Source of the DNA: Sunxiuqinia elliptica
GTDB lineage: Bacteria; Bacteroidota; Bacteroidia; Bacteroidales; Prolixibacteraceae
Direction: 5' to 3'
DNA length: 64,000 bases
Assembly (NCBI RefSeq): GCF_900113005.1
Contig: NZ_FONW01000001.1
Span: forward strand, 310,001-374,000
The notes beneath the pieces are model-generated. The model saw only the letters and a program-made list of their open reading frames with translations. It was not told where the DNA came from and did no database searches. Shown here one piece after another: positions 53,954 to 60,272 of this stretch. The position numbers and the translations under genes are program-made. Every line of letters begins with the position of its first letter. The first letter of the stretch is position 1.

Positions 53954-55045
53954 CTAATCTTCATCCATAATTTCTGTTTGCATTCGCACAGAGTCTTCGT
54001 GAATTAACTGAAAAAGAATCTGTACAAAAGTTTTATTCAGGCTAAGCTTCTCACCCAATGAGATGCGTTTGTTCATCAATTCAGTCCATCGGTTAATCTG
54101 AAGCGCTGTTACGTTATTCTCTTTCTTATACCGGCCAATTTCACGGGCAATTTCCATTCGAGATGAAAGCACCTCCATCAATTCAGAATCCAATGCGTCG
54201 ATCCGGCTACGGAGCAATTCCAGCTTATTCTCAAACTGCTTGTTAGACGAACTTGATTGACGAATAACCAGTTTATCCAAAAGAAGTCCCAAATCAGCAG
54301 GAGTAAGCTGTTGCTCTTTATCACTCAAAGCACAAGATGGGTCACGATGCGATTCGATCATCAGCCCCTCCATTCCCATGTCAAAGGCTTTCTGAGATAC
54401 TTCAAACAAATATTCTCTCTTTCCGGCAATATGGCTAGGGTCGCAAATCACAGGAAGATTAGGAAGCAAACGACGCAGTTCAATAAAGGTCTTCCAGTTG
54501 GGATAATTGCGGTAATGCGTTTCGCGAAACGGTGTAAACCCACGATGAATACCAACCAGATTTTTAATCCCTGCCTGATTCAAACGTTCCAAGGCTCCCA
54601 TCCACAATTGGACATCGGGGTTAACCGGGTTTTTCACCATAACAACAGCATCGGTCCCTTTCACCACATCAGCAATTTCCTGCACCACAAACGGACTTGC
54701 TGTTGAGCGTGCCCCAATCCAAAGCACATCCAAGCCTGCATTTAACGCTTCCTCAGTATGCTGCGCATTAGCAACTTCAGTTCCAACCGGTAAGCCGGTC
54801 TCTTTTTTCACTTGTTGCAGCCATTTCAAACCAATCGCACCAACACCTTCGAAGCTTCCGGGTCGTGTTCTGGGCTTCCAAACGCCACCACGAAAAACAA
54901 AGACTCGCTTATCTTTAGCTAGCTGATGAGCTGTCTCCAATGTTTGCTCTTCGGTCTCCAGACTACACGGCCCGGCAATTAACAGCGGGTTATCCTGCTG
55001 TGGCAACCAATCCTTAATTGGTCTGATGTCTAATTCTATTCCCAT
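53954..55045 (-). CDS. Bifunctional DAHP synthase / chorismate mutase
   Basis: The 363-residue enzyme has an N-terminal KDO8P/DAHP synthase-type TIM barrel (about residues 15-265) with AGPCSLETEEQ, FRGGVWKPRTRPGSFEG and ICDPSHIAGKRE, and a C-terminal AroQ-type chorismate mutase helix bundle (about 275-355, LRSRIDALDSELMEVLSSRMEIAREIG). The fusion gives feedback control: the mutase half binds chorismate or prephenate and inhibits the synthase. It condenses PEP and erythrose-4-phosphate, the first step to aromatic amino acids. It lies two bases after tyrA, under the same attenuator. Confidence 0.94.
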   Translation of the reverse strand: MGIELDIRPIKDWLPQQDNPLLIAGPCSLETEEQTLETAHQLAKDKRVFVFRGGVWKPRTRPGSFEGVGAIGLKWLQQVKKETGLPVGTEVANAQHTEEALNAGLDVLWIGARSTASPFVVQEIADVVKGTDAVVMVKNPVNPDVQLWMGALERLNQAGIKNLVGIHRGFTPFRETHYRNYPNWKTFIELRRLLPNLPVICDPSHIAGKREYLFEVSQKAFDMGMEGLMIESHRDPSCALSDKEQQLTPADLGLLLDKLVIRQSSSSNKQFENKLELLRSRIDALDSELMEVLSSRMEIAREIGRYKKENNVTALQINRWTELMNKRISLGEKLSLNKTFVQILFQLIHEDSVRMQTEIMDED

Positions 55046-55047
55046 CT

Positions 55048-55941
55048 TTACTTTGTATAAAATTTAACGATTTTCTCTTCATTTTTAATCAGCGAAGGAT
55101 TTTGTCCTCCTAAAACGGATCTGATATTATTGGCGTTCTCCATCAAATCATACATCCGTTCCTCATCATTCTGAATGCTTTCTTTGAAATCAATCAGGTG
55201 CTTGATGTAAACCTCCAGCGACTCAACAACGTAGCTTTTGTTTTGTTGAAAGATTGGTCCCCACATTGAAGGAGTACTTTTAGCCAAGCGAACTGTAGAC
55301 CGAAATCCCCCGCTTGCCAAATCAAAAATAATGGAGCGATCTTCCTTGTCCTGCACAGCATTAGCTAGTGCAAAAGCAGCAGCATGTGGCAGGTGAGAAA
55401 TAAATGCCGTGCTGTGATCTTGTTCATCAGCCGACATGTAGGCAATATCCATTCCCATAGCTTGAAACATTTTTTCAATAAGGGCCAGGTGCTGTGGACC
55501 ACTTTTTTCGTGGTCGCAAATAATTGCAATCTTACTCGCAAAAAGTCCTTCCAAAGCAGCAGTTGGACCCGAGTTTTCCGTTCCCGACATAGGATGAGCA
55601 GCCACATAATTTCGACGCCTTGGATGTCCATCAACTGCATCAGCCAACGCTTTCTTGGTCGATCCCATATCCGTTACCGTTGTCCCGTCAGATACTAAAT
55701 CAAGCACCTGAGGCAATACGACCTTTATTTTATCTACGGGAATCGCTATCACCACCAAGTCTGCTTTAGCAACCGCCTGATCCAATGGTAAGACCAGATC
55801 AACCAAGCCAATTTGTGTTGCTTCTTCAGCATGCTTTTCGTTGGCATCAACTCCAACAACTGAAGTTGCAAAACCACATTTTCGAAGATCTTTTGCGATT
55901 GATCCTCCTATTAATCCTAGCCCAATTATTGTTACATTCAT
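55048..55941 (-). CDS. tyrA: Prephenate dehydrogenase
   Basis: The 297-residue enzyme oxidatively decarboxylates prephenate to 4-hydroxyphenylpyruvate for tyrosine. The NAD(P) Rossmann motif is IIGLGLIGGSIAKDL at the N-terminus. The catalytic histidine is in AAHPMSGTENSGP (near residue 113), and SHLPHAAAFALAN is the helical dimer-domain motif. No ACT or chorismate mutase domain is present in this chain, so the mutase is supplied by the next gene. It is the first structural gene of an operon preceded by a leader peptide and terminator. Confidence 0.95.
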   Translation of the reverse strand: MNVTIIGLGLIGGSIAKDLRKCGFATSVVGVDANEKHAEEATQIGLVDLVLPLDQAVAKADLVVIAIPVDKIKVVLPQVLDLVSDGTTVTDMGSTKKALADAVDGHPRRRNYVAAHPMSGTENSGPTAALEGLFASKIAIICDHEKSGPQHLALIEKMFQAMGMDIAYMSADEQDHSTAFISHLPHAAAFALANAVQDKEDRSIIFDLASGGFRSTVRLAKSTPSMWGPIFQQNKSYVVESLEVYIKHLIDFKESIQNDEERMYDLMENANNIRSVLGGQNPSLIKNEEKIVKFYTK

Positions 55942-55953
55942 GATTTTTGGTAT

Positions 55954-55983
55954 AAAAAAAAGGTCCCGATTTCTCGGGACCTT
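55954..55983 (-). terminator. Attenuator terminator in the tyrA leader
   Basis: On the minus strand AAGGTCCCGA and TCGGGACCTT form a perfect 10-bp stem with a 4-nt loop, followed by T8. It lies 33 bases after the leader-peptide stop and 12 bases before the tyrA ATG, so it would end transcription before tyrA unless the alternative pairing with 56026-56032 forms. Confidence 0.9.
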
Positions 55984-56016
55984 CTTTTGTAATATATCTT
56001 AGATTTTAACAATACA

Positions 56017-56091
56017 CTACCGTTCGACCCCGTTTTGTGAACCGAAATAATAAAACCAGTAATAAAATGTATTGCTAAAAATCGTTGTCAT
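56017..56091 (-). CDS. Aromatic-rich leader peptide of the tyrA attenuator
   Basis: This 24-residue frame starts with ATG at 56091 and ends with TAG at 56017. It contains MTTIFSNT, then FYYWFYYF, then GSQNGVER. Nine of the 24 residues are Phe, Tyr or Trp, eight of them consecutive, which is far beyond chance and is the hallmark of a ribosome-stalling leader. The codons GGG GTC just after the aromatic run (56026-56032, CGGGGTC in RNA sense) can pair with GGTCCCG of the terminator 5' arm. A ribosome paused at the aromatic codons leaves them free, which prevents the terminator. The start lies about 10-15 bases after the likely transcription start. Confidence 0.85.
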   Translation of the reverse strand: MTTIFSNTFYYWFYYFGSQNGVER

Positions 56092-56108
56092 TCCTATGAA
56101 TTTGAAAG

Positions 56109-56138
56109 CAAAGATAGCGTTTTCTTTTAAAATCAAAA
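56109..56138 (-). promoter_or_regulatory. Promoter of the tyrA attenuator and operon
   Basis: On the minus strand TTTTG (56134-56138), a 17-base spacer and TATCTTTG (56109-56116) are a full match to the Bacteroidota consensus. The leader peptide ATG begins 18 bases downstream of the -7 element, so the mRNA has a short 5' end as expected for an attenuator. Confidence 0.8.
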
Positions 56139-56243: not shown

Positions 56244-58724
56244 TTACTGTTTCACGAACTTTTGCGTGAAGACCTGACCATTCTCAAACTCGAAAACAAC
56301 TAAATACAATCCTGGAACAAAAGACTGAATATCAACATCTTCATACAGTTCCCGAGCAACATCTCCAAACAGCTCTTGTTTCAAAAGTTGTCCCTGTGTG
56401 TTCAATATTGATAGTTTTACGGCTCCTGCTTTCAATTTGAAACTGCCTTTAACAAACAGCTTTTCCGCAGCAGGATTGGGATAAACCAACAATTCGCCGG
56501 GTGAAAAATCAACCAAATCAACAGCCGTTGATGGATCCTGAATCTTAAGGTCATCAATCACCCATCCCCAACCATTGGCATAAGGATCGGAAAATAAACG
56601 AAAACGAAGAACAATCGTATCTCCTGCCTGAAAATGACCACTATCCGTTAGCTTGAACATTCGATCAACATAGTAACTTTCCTGACCTGTTGCTGTTGAG
56701 TTATTGCCTTCAATTAGACTATTATAAGTTGATAGCCAAGTGGTGTTTTCTCTGGAATCATAACCATCCAGCAAAGGCAACCACTCTCCTGTTCCGTTTT
56801 TCGAAGCTTCAACAATCACATAGTCCCAAAAATTCTCATCACCAAACACGCTTCTGGTCTCTCCCGGCTCCACCAAAACCACCTCCCGAAATGAAATTGT
56901 CCCCAATTCATTAATGATAATCGGATATTTCAGTTTTGCTGTAAAATCAAGTGTTTCCTCATCTCTCTCAATACTTGGATAAGGGTGAGGACTGTGCAGT
57001 GCTCCATTCTCGAAAAGTTCTTCCTCGCCAATATAAAAGTCTGCTGAACTAAAATCTCTGGAAGTTGAATTAAAATCATTGACATACAACTCTACAGGAT
57101 CATAATAGCCATCGATCATGAAAAAGTAATATCCATTTACTCCGGGCAATATGGTTTGATTTGCACTGATGGAGCTATCTTCGACAATGATCTGATAACG
57201 TACTGAATCGCCATCAACCAGACCTTCCAAACGCAGAGTATCCCGGTACAAATCATCACCAATTGACTTAAGAACTAACTCTTTGGGTTCATCTTCGTTC
57301 ACCAGGTAGCGCATCTTCACCTCTTTCACCCCAACATTGTCTGTTGCTTCAACCAATACTTCCGCGGCTAAATCTCCTTCAAACATGAGCGGAATCTGTC
57401 GATGCGACACCAGTGGCAACTCCGAATCAACACCGATCTTAAAATTGAAGCTCTTACGTGGCGCCCTTGTTGGCAAGTAAAAACTACGTCCACTTGTATC
57501 CACAACCGTCAAATAATACACATAACTCCCTTCAGCAAGTTCAGACAAGATAAGCTCAAACTTCTGCTGTTGCTCGTTGTAACCCATCGCCAGTGTATCT
57601 GCTGTTTCAAAGCCGTCAACCGAATAAATAAAAGCTACCGTACTACTATCAATTTCTGTATCTGTACTAATAGCAGCATTAACCAGCAACTGATCAGCAT
57701 CTTCAATATCTTTCAAAGGTTCATGAATAATGCTTGTGTGAATCCAGCCCATATCAGCAAAAATGCCCAAGGTATAAGGGCCAGGATCGTGAACGGCTTC
57801 GGCCATGTCAAAATAAGGAGTCATCAACGAGTTTTCGTTGCCATTTAAATAGGTTGACTCATTGAGGTGATAAATACTCGAACCTTCATCAAAAGCAGTG
57901 GGAGCAAATAAGCGCGGGTATGAATCGGTTGCACTCTGTAAACGGGCCGCCTCACTTTTTGAATACAAATTATTTGAACGAAACTGACGATACAAATCCA
58001 CAGAAGGATTCGGATACAAATCGGTATCCACGAGATAATTGCCGACCTGATTAATTACCAACTCATCGAAAATACCCGGATAAGGAAGAATATCGCCATA
58101 AGCTCCCTGTCTATCCTGTTCGTAGAAAAAACCTGTAAAGCCCAATCCATGCCCGATCTCATGAAGAACGACTGAAACAAAATCGTATTTCCCAGCTGGT
58201 GTTTGCCCGTCGGTTCCAAAATACCAGTCTTCGTTAGCACTGTTAAACTGAGCAATAATATCCGGAACATCTTCTCCGCTAATCTCTTTGCCTTCCAGTT
58301 TTTCAACCAAAGCAATTGGGTAGTAACAATTTTCGTAAGGAGCAGCATCAAAATTCTCGTAATACTCATATGGGCCACAGCTTCCCAGCACATCCTCATC
58401 CAACTTGACCCAACGAGCAGTGAGGTAAATTGGCACGGGCGAAGCAATTAAACTTTCCCAAATCTCCACAGCATGCTGAAAGGCTGCTTTAGGCTCCTCA
58501 TCAAAGCCAACATAACGCACAATGATAGACGATTTCTTTTGAGCTGCCGACTTTAGTCGAAGGCTATGCGCTTCAGGAGGATGCACACAACTTGCATGAC
58601 TAACATTTGATCCATAGCAAATTGGAGCCGGAACCTTCACCCCTCTTTGTTGCCATGCTTTCTGCGAAAAAGCAGGGATAGCTAGCAATCCAATAAGTGC
58701 GATCAATAAAAATCGTTTCATCAT
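56244..58724 (-). CDS. Secreted zinc metalloprotease with T9SS C-terminal sorting domain
   Basis: The 826-residue protein has a signal peptide (about residues 1-20, AIPAFS) and a metzincin-type zinc site HEIGHGLGFTGFF near residue 188 (HExxHxxG). Beta-rich domains follow. The last about 80 residues (PNPAAEKLFVKGSFKLKAG, LNTQGQLLKQELFGD, GLYLVVFEFENGQVFTQKFV) form a type A sorting domain, so the enzyme is exported by the type IX secretion system. It would digest proteins at the surface or outside. The next gene is a GH32 enzyme on the other strand. The metalloprotease family cannot be named more exactly. Confidence 0.9.
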   Translation of the reverse strand: MMKRFLLIALIGLLAIPAFSQKAWQQRGVKVPAPICYGSNVSHASCVHPPEAHSLRLKSAAQKKSSIIVRYVGFDEEPKAAFQHAVEIWESLIASPVPIYLTARWVKLDEDVLGSCGPYEYYENFDAAPYENCYYPIALVEKLEGKEISGEDVPDIIAQFNSANEDWYFGTDGQTPAGKYDFVSVVLHEIGHGLGFTGFFYEQDRQGAYGDILPYPGIFDELVINQVGNYLVDTDLYPNPSVDLYRQFRSNNLYSKSEAARLQSATDSYPRLFAPTAFDEGSSIYHLNESTYLNGNENSLMTPYFDMAEAVHDPGPYTLGIFADMGWIHTSIIHEPLKDIEDADQLLVNAAISTDTEIDSSTVAFIYSVDGFETADTLAMGYNEQQQKFELILSELAEGSYVYYLTVVDTSGRSFYLPTRAPRKSFNFKIGVDSELPLVSHRQIPLMFEGDLAAEVLVEATDNVGVKEVKMRYLVNEDEPKELVLKSIGDDLYRDTLRLEGLVDGDSVRYQIIVEDSSISANQTILPGVNGYYFFMIDGYYDPVELYVNDFNSTSRDFSSADFYIGEEELFENGALHSPHPYPSIERDEETLDFTAKLKYPIIINELGTISFREVVLVEPGETRSVFGDENFWDYVIVEASKNGTGEWLPLLDGYDSRENTTWLSTYNSLIEGNNSTATGQESYYVDRMFKLTDSGHFQAGDTIVLRFRLFSDPYANGWGWVIDDLKIQDPSTAVDLVDFSPGELLVYPNPAAEKLFVKGSFKLKAGAVKLSILNTQGQLLKQELFGDVARELYEDVDIQSFVPGLYLVVFEFENGQVFTQKFVKQ

Positions 58725-58814: not shown

Positions 58815-60272
58815 ATGAAAAGTTTGCACAACTACCTCATTTTATCATACTTACTATTTTTTTCAGCGATTTCGTCACAAGCACAAAAGCACAATTTTGA
58901 TGAAGTCTACCGTCCTCAGTTCCATTTCACTCCAGCCCAAAACTGGATGAATGATCCCAATGGATTGATCTATTTTGATGGAGTCTATCATTTGTTTTAT
59001 CAGCATAACCCAAACGGAAACGAATGGGGCTATATGCACTGGGGGCATGCAACCTCCAAAGACTTGGTCCACTGGGAACACCAGCCTATTGCGATCTATC
59101 CTGATGACAACTCAAAAGATAAAGAACTGGCAACAGCCTGGTCTGGATCGGCCATTGTAGATCACAACAACTTACTTGGCTTACAGCAGGGATCAACCCC
59201 TTGTCTGCTGGCATTCTACACAAGTAAAGACAATGGACAGCGAATTGCCTACAGCACTGATAAAGGACAAACCTGGCAAAAATTTGCCGGTAACCCGGTG
59301 ATTCCTTTTAATGAAAAAGACGAAGCTCGCGATCCCAAAGTATTTTGGCATCAGGAAAGTCAAAAGTATGTAATGGTTTTGTGGCGCAAACCAGACGGCG
59401 TACAAAACGCACAGGGAATCTCGATCTACACATCGGAAAACCTGACCGATTGGAACTACGAAAGTCATGTTCCCGGCTTCTACGAATGTCCTGATTTGGT
59501 TAAGCTTCCGGTAAACCGACGAGCTGATGATACCCGTTGGGTTATTTTCGACGGAGATGGTTCCTACATCGTTGGACAATTTGATGGTAAAAAGTTTAGT
59601 CCGGAAACCCCAAAAATACAAGGAGACTATGGTAAGAATTACTATGCAACCCAAACCTTCAGCAATATTCCGGAAGAAGATGGGCGCGTAATTCAACTGG
59701 CATGGATGCGAGGCGGAGAGTTTCCCGATATGCCTTTTAACGGGCAAATGACTTTTCCTAGCGAACTTGCGCTAACAACCTATTTAGAGGGTATTCGCCT
59801 GGTACGAACGCCAATTAAGGAGATTGAGCTTTTGCACGAAAAGGGAGCTGTTTGGGAAAATAAAAACCTGATTCCCGGTCTTAACAAAAACCTCACGAAA
59901 AAAGTAAAAGGCGATTGCCTTCACATAAAAGGTACTTTTGAACTTAAAACCGTGAACAGCTTCGGCTTTGTTGTCCGAAACTCTCGGAAAGAAGTGGGTG
60001 TTGAAATTCGATATGATGCAACAAAAAACGTCCTTTCCTGTCTTGGTAAAGGTGTTCGGCTGATGCCCGAAGATGGAAAAATTGAACTGGAGATTTTACT
60101 GGATCGAACCTCCTTGGAGCTATTTGGCAATGGAGGAAAAGCAGTGCTAAGCTCATGCTATAAGGCTGAACCAAGTGCTCAAGATCTTGTTTTATACAAT
60201 ACCGGAGGTGAACTTCTGGTCGAAAAATTGGAAGTTCATCCGATTAAATCGATATACCTCCCCGAGGATTAG
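58815..60272 (+). CDS. GH32 beta-fructosidase (levanase/inulinase-like)
   Basis: The 485-residue exported enzyme has a signal peptide (about residues 1-23, SSQAQ). The GH32 five-blade propeller (about 30-335) carries the nucleophile motif WMNDPNG near 43, the stabiliser EARDPK near 170, and the acid/base ECPD near 222. The C-terminal beta-sandwich (about 360-485) is the usual second module. It hydrolyses beta-linked fructosyl units in fructan or sucrose. No SusCD or fructokinase is adjacent, so it does not form a complete fructan locus here. The sequence from 60273 to 60372 holds a terminator. Confidence 0.95.
   Translation: MKSLHNYLILSYLLFFSAISSQAQKHNFDEVYRPQFHFTPAQNWMNDPNGLIYFDGVYHLFYQHNPNGNEWGYMHWGHATSKDLVHWEHQPIAIYPDDNSKDKELATAWSGSAIVDHNNLLGLQQGSTPCLLAFYTSKDNGQRIAYSTDKGQTWQKFAGNPVIPFNEKDEARDPKVFWHQESQKYVMVLWRKPDGVQNAQGISIYTSENLTDWNYESHVPGFYECPDLVKLPVNRRADDTRWVIFDGDGSYIVGQFDGKKFSPETPKIQGDYGKNYYATQTFSNIPEEDGRVIQLAWMRGGEFPDMPFNGQMTFPSELALTTYLEGIRLVRTPIKEIELLHEKGAVWENKNLIPGLNKNLTKKVKGDCLHIKGTFELKTVNSFGFVVRNSRKEVGVEIRYDATKNVLSCLGKGVRLMPEDGKIELEILLDRTSLELFGNGGKAVLSSCYKAEPSAQDLVLYNTGGELLVEKLEVHPIKSIYLPED

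Follow-up and report, generated by a model that had tools for sequence, protein, structure and literature searches.

The operon encoding prephenate dehydrogenase (TyrA) and a DAHP synthase/chorismate mutase fusion (DAHPS/CM) in Sunxiuqinia elliptica is very probably preceded by a ribosome-mediated transcription attenuator of the trp/pheL kind, which would read the charging of tRNA-Phe and tRNA-Tyr and, where a lineage has UGG in its leader, of tRNA-Trp. Comparison of about a hundred distinct sequences provides covariation evidence that would place the entry into aromatic amino acid synthesis under ribosome-stalling control in Bacteroidota, a phylum in which classical attenuation is little documented. 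A like switch appears before pheA in most of the families sampled in the order and before tyrA in Prolixibacteraceae, ahead of DAHPS/CM in both cases, and this placement offers a clear case of attenuators staying with the gene that needs control. The analysis pinpoints the exact bases for mutation and yields a covariance model that recovers the element.

Organization of the tyrA locus

The window, i.e., the whole 64,000-nucleotide stretch that was analysed, belongs to a genome assembly of 5.09 Mb in 26 contigs. The named relatives of its TyrA at 82 to 86% identity are Sunxiuqinia and Gaoshiqia. The locus comprises the following features.

56244-58724, minus strand: upstream gene, large protein with a secretion-system sorting tail (PF18962)
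56109-56138, minus strand: promoter motif read from the sequence, TTTTG (56138-56134), 17 nt and TATCTTTG (56116-56109)
56017-56091, minus strand: leader open reading frame (ORF) MTTIFSNTFYYWFYYFGSQNGVER, 24 codons plus TAG stop, from ORF reading
55954-55983, minus strand: intrinsic terminator, arms 55983-55974 and 55969-55960, T8 55961-55954, from sequence and fold
55048-55941, minus strand: tyrA, prephenate dehydrogenase, 297 aa (PF02153, PF20463, and NF006307 above cut-off)
53954-55045, minus strand: DAHP synthase/chorismate mutase fusion, 363 aa, directly 3' of tyrA (PF00793 and PF01817 above cut-off)

The control codons are codons 9 to 16 of the leader ORF, FYYWFYYF. The terminator is a perfect 10-bp stem with a GAAA loop, and its T8 ends 12 nt before the tyrA ATG (55941). 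Re-reading of the sequence confirmed the coordinates and counts that an earlier note had given for the promoter, the 24-codon frame, the terminator, and a 7-nt segment discussed below. The assignment of the TTTTG and TATCTTTG boxes depends on what we take to be the Bacteroidota-type promoter consensus; sigma-70 pattern scans are ill-suited to promoters of this phylum. The minus-strand terminator, plain from the sequence and the fold, was missed by the pattern scan, which returned a plus-strand terminator only. A GH32 glycosidase gene (58815-60272, plus strand) lies next to the gene for the sorting-tail protein.

Among all ATG-started ORFs of 10 to 45 codons in the whole window, the leader is the only one with 8 aromatic residues in 8 codons, and one other has 6. 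First-order Markov resampling of the 300 nt upstream of tyrA produced 8 aromatics in 0 of 3,000 sequences and 7 in 1 of 3,000. The leader region folds with a z score of -4.6, and none of 200 shuffles was equally low.

Conservation of the aromatic leader in Prolixibacteraceae

A family search revealed TyrA in 127 of 140 Prolixibacteraceae genomes. The 120 tyrA loci examined were those with a near full-length gene (30 plus 90; four more were duplicates), the seven remaining TyrA-positive genomes being excluded since they gave fragments or weak matches only. An aromatic leader preceded tyrA in 120 of 120 loci, 119 of which were identified by a script requiring at least 5 aromatics within 8 codons. 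The last one (L019), in which a contig end cuts the leader, was identified by eye, the run being still legible, and visual inspection also covered the diverged leader L104 (5 aromatics in 8 codons). In the 118 other leaders, the best 8 codons contained 8 aromatics in 84 cases, 7 in 10, 6 in 20, and 5 in 4. A DAHPS/CM match was present 3' of tyrA on the same strand in all 120 loci.

Codons for both Phe and Tyr were present in each of the 119 scored leaders, and Trp codons in 82 of them. The combined Phe/Tyr/Trp sensor initially proposed thus stands for Phe and Tyr but not for Trp, which is not conserved; as judged from codon content, the leader is a predicted Phe/Tyr sensor with Trp as an optional component. 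In an alignment of 103 leaders, all eight positions of the run are mostly aromatic (82 to 102 rows out of the 101 to 103 aligned), F, Y, and W interchange within the run, and other residues are uncommon there. Up to the last codon of the run, internal gaps have lengths divisible by 3, with the exception of a single 1-nt insertion in L050. Together, the frame-keeping gaps and the interchange of F, Y, and W point to selection on decoding. The residues kept after the run were Gly (75 of 103 leaders), Ser (67), Gly (92), and Ile or Val (86).

Of 117 loci, 110 have the motif TAnnTTTG in the 70 nt that precede the leader ATG, for 5.3 expected from shuffles, and a crude pattern for the T-rich -33 element matched in just 51 of the 117. 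A perfect-stem finder located the terminator in 103 of 118 loci, three of these with only 5 bp; inspection by eye revealed a mismatched stem followed by T's in the remaining 15. The aromatic codons and the terminator, whose absence from relatives would speak against an attenuator according to the earlier note, are therefore both conserved.

Prolixibacteraceae-like tyrA genes (71 to 76% identity) were also found on contigs labelled Saccharibacteria, Chitinophaga pinensis, and Odoribacter (L171, on LCPR01000022.1, L154, and L155), which are perhaps mislabelled or misbinned.

Mutually exclusive helices and covariation

The following helices were identified in the leader region.

56068-56078, minus strand: clamp helix P1, 5' strand (segment 1), immediately ahead of the aromatic run, partner strand 56016-56006
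56006-56016, minus strand: clamp helix P1, 3' strand, just past the leader stop codon, overlaps helix B
56039-56046, minus strand: hairpin H, 5' strand, from the last Phe codon onward, pairs with 56030-56023
56023-56030, minus strand: hairpin H, 3' strand, overlaps helix A
56026-56032, minus strand: antiterminator helix A, 5' strand CGGGGTC, partner strand 55981-55975 (GGTCCCG) within the terminator 5' arm
56011-56020, minus strand: antiterminator helix B, 5' strand, includes the stop codon of the leader, partner strand 55998-55989
55989-55998, minus strand: antiterminator helix B, 3' strand

P1 and H are both present in the minimum-energy fold of the window sequence. On its own, the segment 56032-55972 folds into helices A and B (-15.5 kcal/mol, z -3.0); in the window, two of the seven pairs of helix A are G-U. 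Helix B shares positions with P1, and helix A shares positions with both H and the terminator. From the sequence, this overlap is the predicted equivalent of the 1:2, 2:3, and 3:4 order of classical attenuators.

Pairs were counted on the 100 distinct rows of an alignment (A1) that includes 103 of the 118 leaders. The 15 leaders left out were those in which the perfect-stem script missed the terminator, present there with a mismatch. Compensatory change between the 7-nt segment (56026-56032) and the terminator arm, which the earlier note had suggested looking for, was found: 98.4% of the cells of helix A were paired and both-sided changes affected 5 of its 7 pairs, one of which occurred as C-G in 65 rows, G-C in 23, U-G in 4, and A-U in 3. 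Helix B was paired in 79.7% of cells for 8 pairs and in 89.4% for 2 pairs. For helices A and B together, none of 500 shuffles matched the paired percentage, the number of cells with both-sided changes, or the covariation score, and slid controls did not exceed 50.4% paired. Two measures were less clear, since 28 of the 500 shuffles had at least as many pairs with both-sided change and 72 had at least as many pair types.

P1 was paired in 77.4% of cells, with both-sided changes in 9 of 11 pairs and end pairs frequently broken. The corresponding values were 81.2% and 5 of 8 pairs for hairpin H and 95.7% and 7 of 9 pairs for the terminator. For P1, H, and the terminator together, the paired percentage and the covariation score were matched by none of 500 shuffles, the number of pairs with both-sided change was matched by 8 of 500, and slid controls remained at or below 53.5%. 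All these paired percentages lean towards the proposed structures because the window and its relatives served to draw up the structures in the first place, and the covariation counts include many times over changes that are common by descent, related sequences not being independent events. An energy swap of helix A was weak for single sequences, native combinations outperforming swapped ones in 49 of 94 haplotypes and 57 of 117 sequences, although the native mean was better than all 2,000 permutations. The column counts are the better evidence, because G-U pairs tolerate many partners.

Thus, the 7-nt segment that had been taken for the switch does pair, as helix A, but is only part of it, as helix B, P1, and H are conserved too. 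The features of a trp/pheL-type system were found at this locus, namely, a leader ORF with control codons, an intrinsic terminator, a covarying antiterminator, and a protector pairing (P1 and H). With a leader kept in 120 of 120 loci and covarying, mutually exclusive helices, the attenuator reading itself proved largely right.

Proposed mechanism

When aromatic amino acids are ample, the ribosome would reach the leader stop codon and cover the antiterminator strand; the terminator would then form and transcription would end before tyrA. If Phe or Tyr is short, the ribosome would stall in the run and block the P1 5' strand, H, or both, the antiterminator would capture the terminator 5' arm, and tyrA-DAHPS/CM would be transcribed. 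With no ribosome on the leader, P1 and H would form and the terminator would win again.

This scheme was explored with a masking model in which a 30-nt footprint was placed on each codon and antiterminator pairing was computed in the RNA up to the terminator 5' arm, the footprint and equilibrium being assumed. Averaged over 117 leaders, modelled antiterminator pairing was 0.28 with no ribosome, 0.53 with a ribosome on the run, and 0.04 with a ribosome at the stop codon; pairing in the absence of a ribosome exceeded 0.5 in 24% of the leaders. The direction of these modelled values agrees, as expected, with attenuation logic. Both its position and this simple model indicate that a ribosome at the stop codon would mask the antiterminator strand. 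For the window, the model gave 0.00 with no ribosome, 0.01 at the stop codon, and 0.04, 0.09, 0.15, 0.15, 0.42, 0.64, 0.62, and 0.46 for stalls at codons 9 to 16, pairing being low (0.04 to 0.15) at codons 9 to 12. Stalls at codons 2 to 7, before the run, gave 0.31 to 0.64; the masking model is therefore not specific to the run.

A more ambitious reading is that the run is bracketed by two protectors, P1 before it and H after it, so that a stall on Phe or on Tyr would free one or the other and the device would operate as an OR gate for the two end products, placed at the branch-point enzyme. It would then represent an RNA class absent from Rfam, spread over Bacteroidales and perhaps Bacteroidia, that tracks the DAHPS/CM operon irrespective of whether pheA or tyrA is its first gene. 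We put this forward tentatively, as a conjecture somewhat less likely to be right than wrong.

Alternative explanations

The hairpin could merely terminate the upstream gene (56244-58724), the aromatic ORF being incidental. That gene shares the strand of the leader, and about 260 nt separate its end from the hairpin, which may well serve it too. However, a promoter motif lies between the upstream gene and the leader, and the aromatic run, the antiterminator, and P1 are conserved and covarying, which makes termination of the upstream gene as the sole role very unlikely. An equally improbable explanation is that the nascent peptide senses a free amino acid, as an arrest peptide of which TnaC is a parallel, rather than a shortage of charged tRNA at the codon level. 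The conservation of some residues after the run (Gly, Ser, Gly, and Ile/Val) would fit an arrest peptide, but the codons for these residues fall within strands that pair in H and helix A. In addition, F, Y, and W interchange in the run and the codon content varies with the operon, as detailed below.

A structured 5' region with a terminator could also belong to a ligand- or tRNA-binding RNA (riboswitch or T-box) with an incidental short ORF. Against this, the only Rfam match above the gathering score in the window was a tRNA located far from the leader, a permissive Rfam scan of the leader gave no T-box or amino-acid riboswitch, and the reading frame is conserved. We regard this explanation as the least credible of the three and retain ribosome-mediated attenuation as the reading of the locus.

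Distribution of the leader beyond tyrA

A covariance model (R1) trained on alignment A1 gave one match in the genome of the window and matched 133 of 140 family genomes at E <= 0.1, a count in which 103 of the leaders matched are the training set and the weakest matches may be due to chance. Among 295 genomes of the order, 44 were matched at E <= 0.01, including four Prolixibacteraceae. Twenty-six R1 loci outside the family were examined. Eighteen precede a prephenate dehydratase gene (confirmed by Pfam for L184 and L200 and read by eye for the others), and the script detected an aromatic leader frame in 14 of these 18. The others precede aminotransferases (three loci), a class IV aminotransferase (one), or a LeuA-type gene (one) or have no gene in the stretch examined (three).

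A search for pheA in 60 genomes of the order (one per family or nearly so) was positive in 28. Outside the genome of the window, 25 of the 27 loci have a leader upstream of pheA in which 6 or more of 8 codons are aromatic, and no such leader was found before the partial pheA matches L255 and L260. For tyrA-type genes of other families, most of which seem internal to operons, a leader was found in 2 of 29 loci; this control is rough, as 14 of the 29 are weak PF02153 matches that begin inside the profile, so that the stretch examined is perhaps not the true upstream region. In 27 pheA and tyrA leaders of other families, the P1-like and antiterminator pairings were stronger in the native combination than in any of 3,000 permuted combinations. 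Single leaders fail this pairing test, and no antiterminator was found in L248. The sequence was extended for 20 of the 27 loci, and in 18 of these a DAHPS/CM gene lies 3' of pheA in the same orientation.

Within Prolixibacteraceae, pheA loci were taken from the best-scoring of 57 genomes with pheA, and 29 of 30 were retained after L338, 74 nt from a contig end, had been dropped. Such a leader was not found in 27 of these 29. The two others (L334 and L351), in which pheA is apart from tyrA-DAHPS/CM, have the Phe-rich leaders MKTTKTNASFFFFWFSS and MNAAYRFWFFFFTD, respectively, each followed by a terminator; Tyr is absent from the former and occurs once in the latter. No aromatic leader was found before the pheA gene of the genome of the window (L207, G000:C16:26642-27184), which is directly preceded by a terminator-like hairpin; neither an aromatic leader nor such a hairpin was seen before pheA of another member of the genus (L205). 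The trpE gene of the genome of the window (L215) has a leader with WWW. The contents of the pheA, tyrA, and trpE leaders suggest that the switch stays with DAHPS/CM and that the codons fit the operon.

In other orders of the class, 17 pheA loci were returned, from which the window genome's own L207 and the order member L243 were set aside. At least 6 aromatics in 8 codons preceded pheA in 8 of the 15 remaining loci, with 5 aromatics in two and none in five. R1 matched 38 of 295 genomes of the class at E <= 0.01. Of the 19 class R1 loci outside the genome of the window, 9 (L220, L225, L227, L229, L230, and L232 to L235) were not counted as leaders because they consisted of a terminator alone or an unrelated stretch.

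Other leaders were observed in the course of these searches. The trpE leader of the genome of the window (C10, near position 941000) reads MKQIMFNFWWWRNNFSQYRGER and is followed by a terminator, as is that of L211, and a second conserved element, CAATATGGCTTCCGTGGTGGGGTCTTCTT...TAATAGCCATATTGG, lies further upstream in both loci. In the class, a leader starting MIFNTSIITTIIITTG (Ile/Thr) and a terminator precede an aspartokinase-type gene in L222 and L231, the L222 gene having PF00696 and ACT domains; this leader resembles the thr attenuator of E. coli. In the order, Ile-rich stretches with terminators occur before genes for a class IV aminotransferase and a LeuA-type synthase (L179 and L199) and are possible branched-chain attenuators, and Tyr-rich or mixed leaders (e.g., MKINLNNTYYYYYQAPPGLDVVLYCL) precede apparent class I/II aminotransferase genes (L176, L178, and L201, with Pfam assignment for L176 only). 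A second, divergent prephenate dehydratase gene (410-codon frame) at L210 (G128:C18) is preceded by a tandem repeat with a CAAT unit.

Comparison with known systems

Like the tyrA leader, pheL (RF01859) and trpL of E. coli combine an ORF containing control codons with a choice between protector, antiterminator, and terminator structures. The tyrA leader differs by its mixture of Phe and Tyr codons and by clamp P1, which encloses the control codons, whereas the protector of the E. coli leaders contains them. The tyrA leader scored 28.2 bits (E 0.0096) with the Phe_leader model RF01859, below the gathering score of 55, and 26.5 bits with the Bacteroid-trp model RF01692, below the gathering score of 49. 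The latter model gave no match at E <= 1 in the genome of the window; among 21 genomes, it gave a match at E <= 1 in 10 and above the cut-off in 1.

Attenuation by trpL and pheL and at pheST in E. coli is reviewed in PMC11802643. According to excerpts of the same review, the aroR leader of Corynebacterium glutamicum (Phe-Tyr-Phe) precedes the operon of aroF, encoding a DAHP synthase (Neshat et al. 2014), and responds to Phe but not to Tyr supply, despite the presence of Tyr codons, a precedent that speaks against the Phe/Tyr reading. By this description, aroR shares with the tyrA leader an aromatic leader peptide, ribosome stalling, and a DAHP synthase operon but belongs to another phylum and has three aromatics, where the run here can count as many as eight or nine. 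Within Bacteroidota, the excerpts of PMC2864571 propose the Bacteroid-trp RNA (RF01692), which is also a peptide-leader RNA located before amino-acid genes but is a tryptophan leader. Short ORFs resembling leader peptides are described for Bacteroides thetaiotaomicron in part of PMC7366714. A Flavobacterium transcriptome study (PMC9723704) contains, in the sections available, clues to leader-peptide attenuation before amino-acid operons, a report that Shine-Dalgarno sequences are absent, and a pheA 5' element that is kept across Flavobacteriaceae without an Rfam match. By its described position before pheA, that element resembles the tyrA leader and may, by analogy, belong to the same class.

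Among the matches listed, the literature search gave no paper whose title concerns an attenuator of tyrA or of Prolixibacteraceae, the main text of PMC2965389 contains none of the terms Bacteroid, tyrA, pheA, and aromatic, and the excerpts of PMC4833913 have nothing on a tyrA-DAHPS/CM operon. Describing such a sensor as little described, as was done at the outset, is therefore fair, with the qualification that Bacteroid-trp is in Rfam and that the available sections of PMC9723704 report attenuation clues and the pheA element. The precedents from E. coli, C. glutamicum, and Bacteroidota indicate that this kind of switch is already known. Within the literature searched, no description was found of the tyrA leader, its mixture of Phe and Tyr codons ahead of tyrA-DAHPS/CM, or the architecture with clamp P1 that recurs across the order. 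In a phylum that is poorly covered, the twist on an old mechanism would be the combination of two protectors with a Phe-or-Tyr gate.
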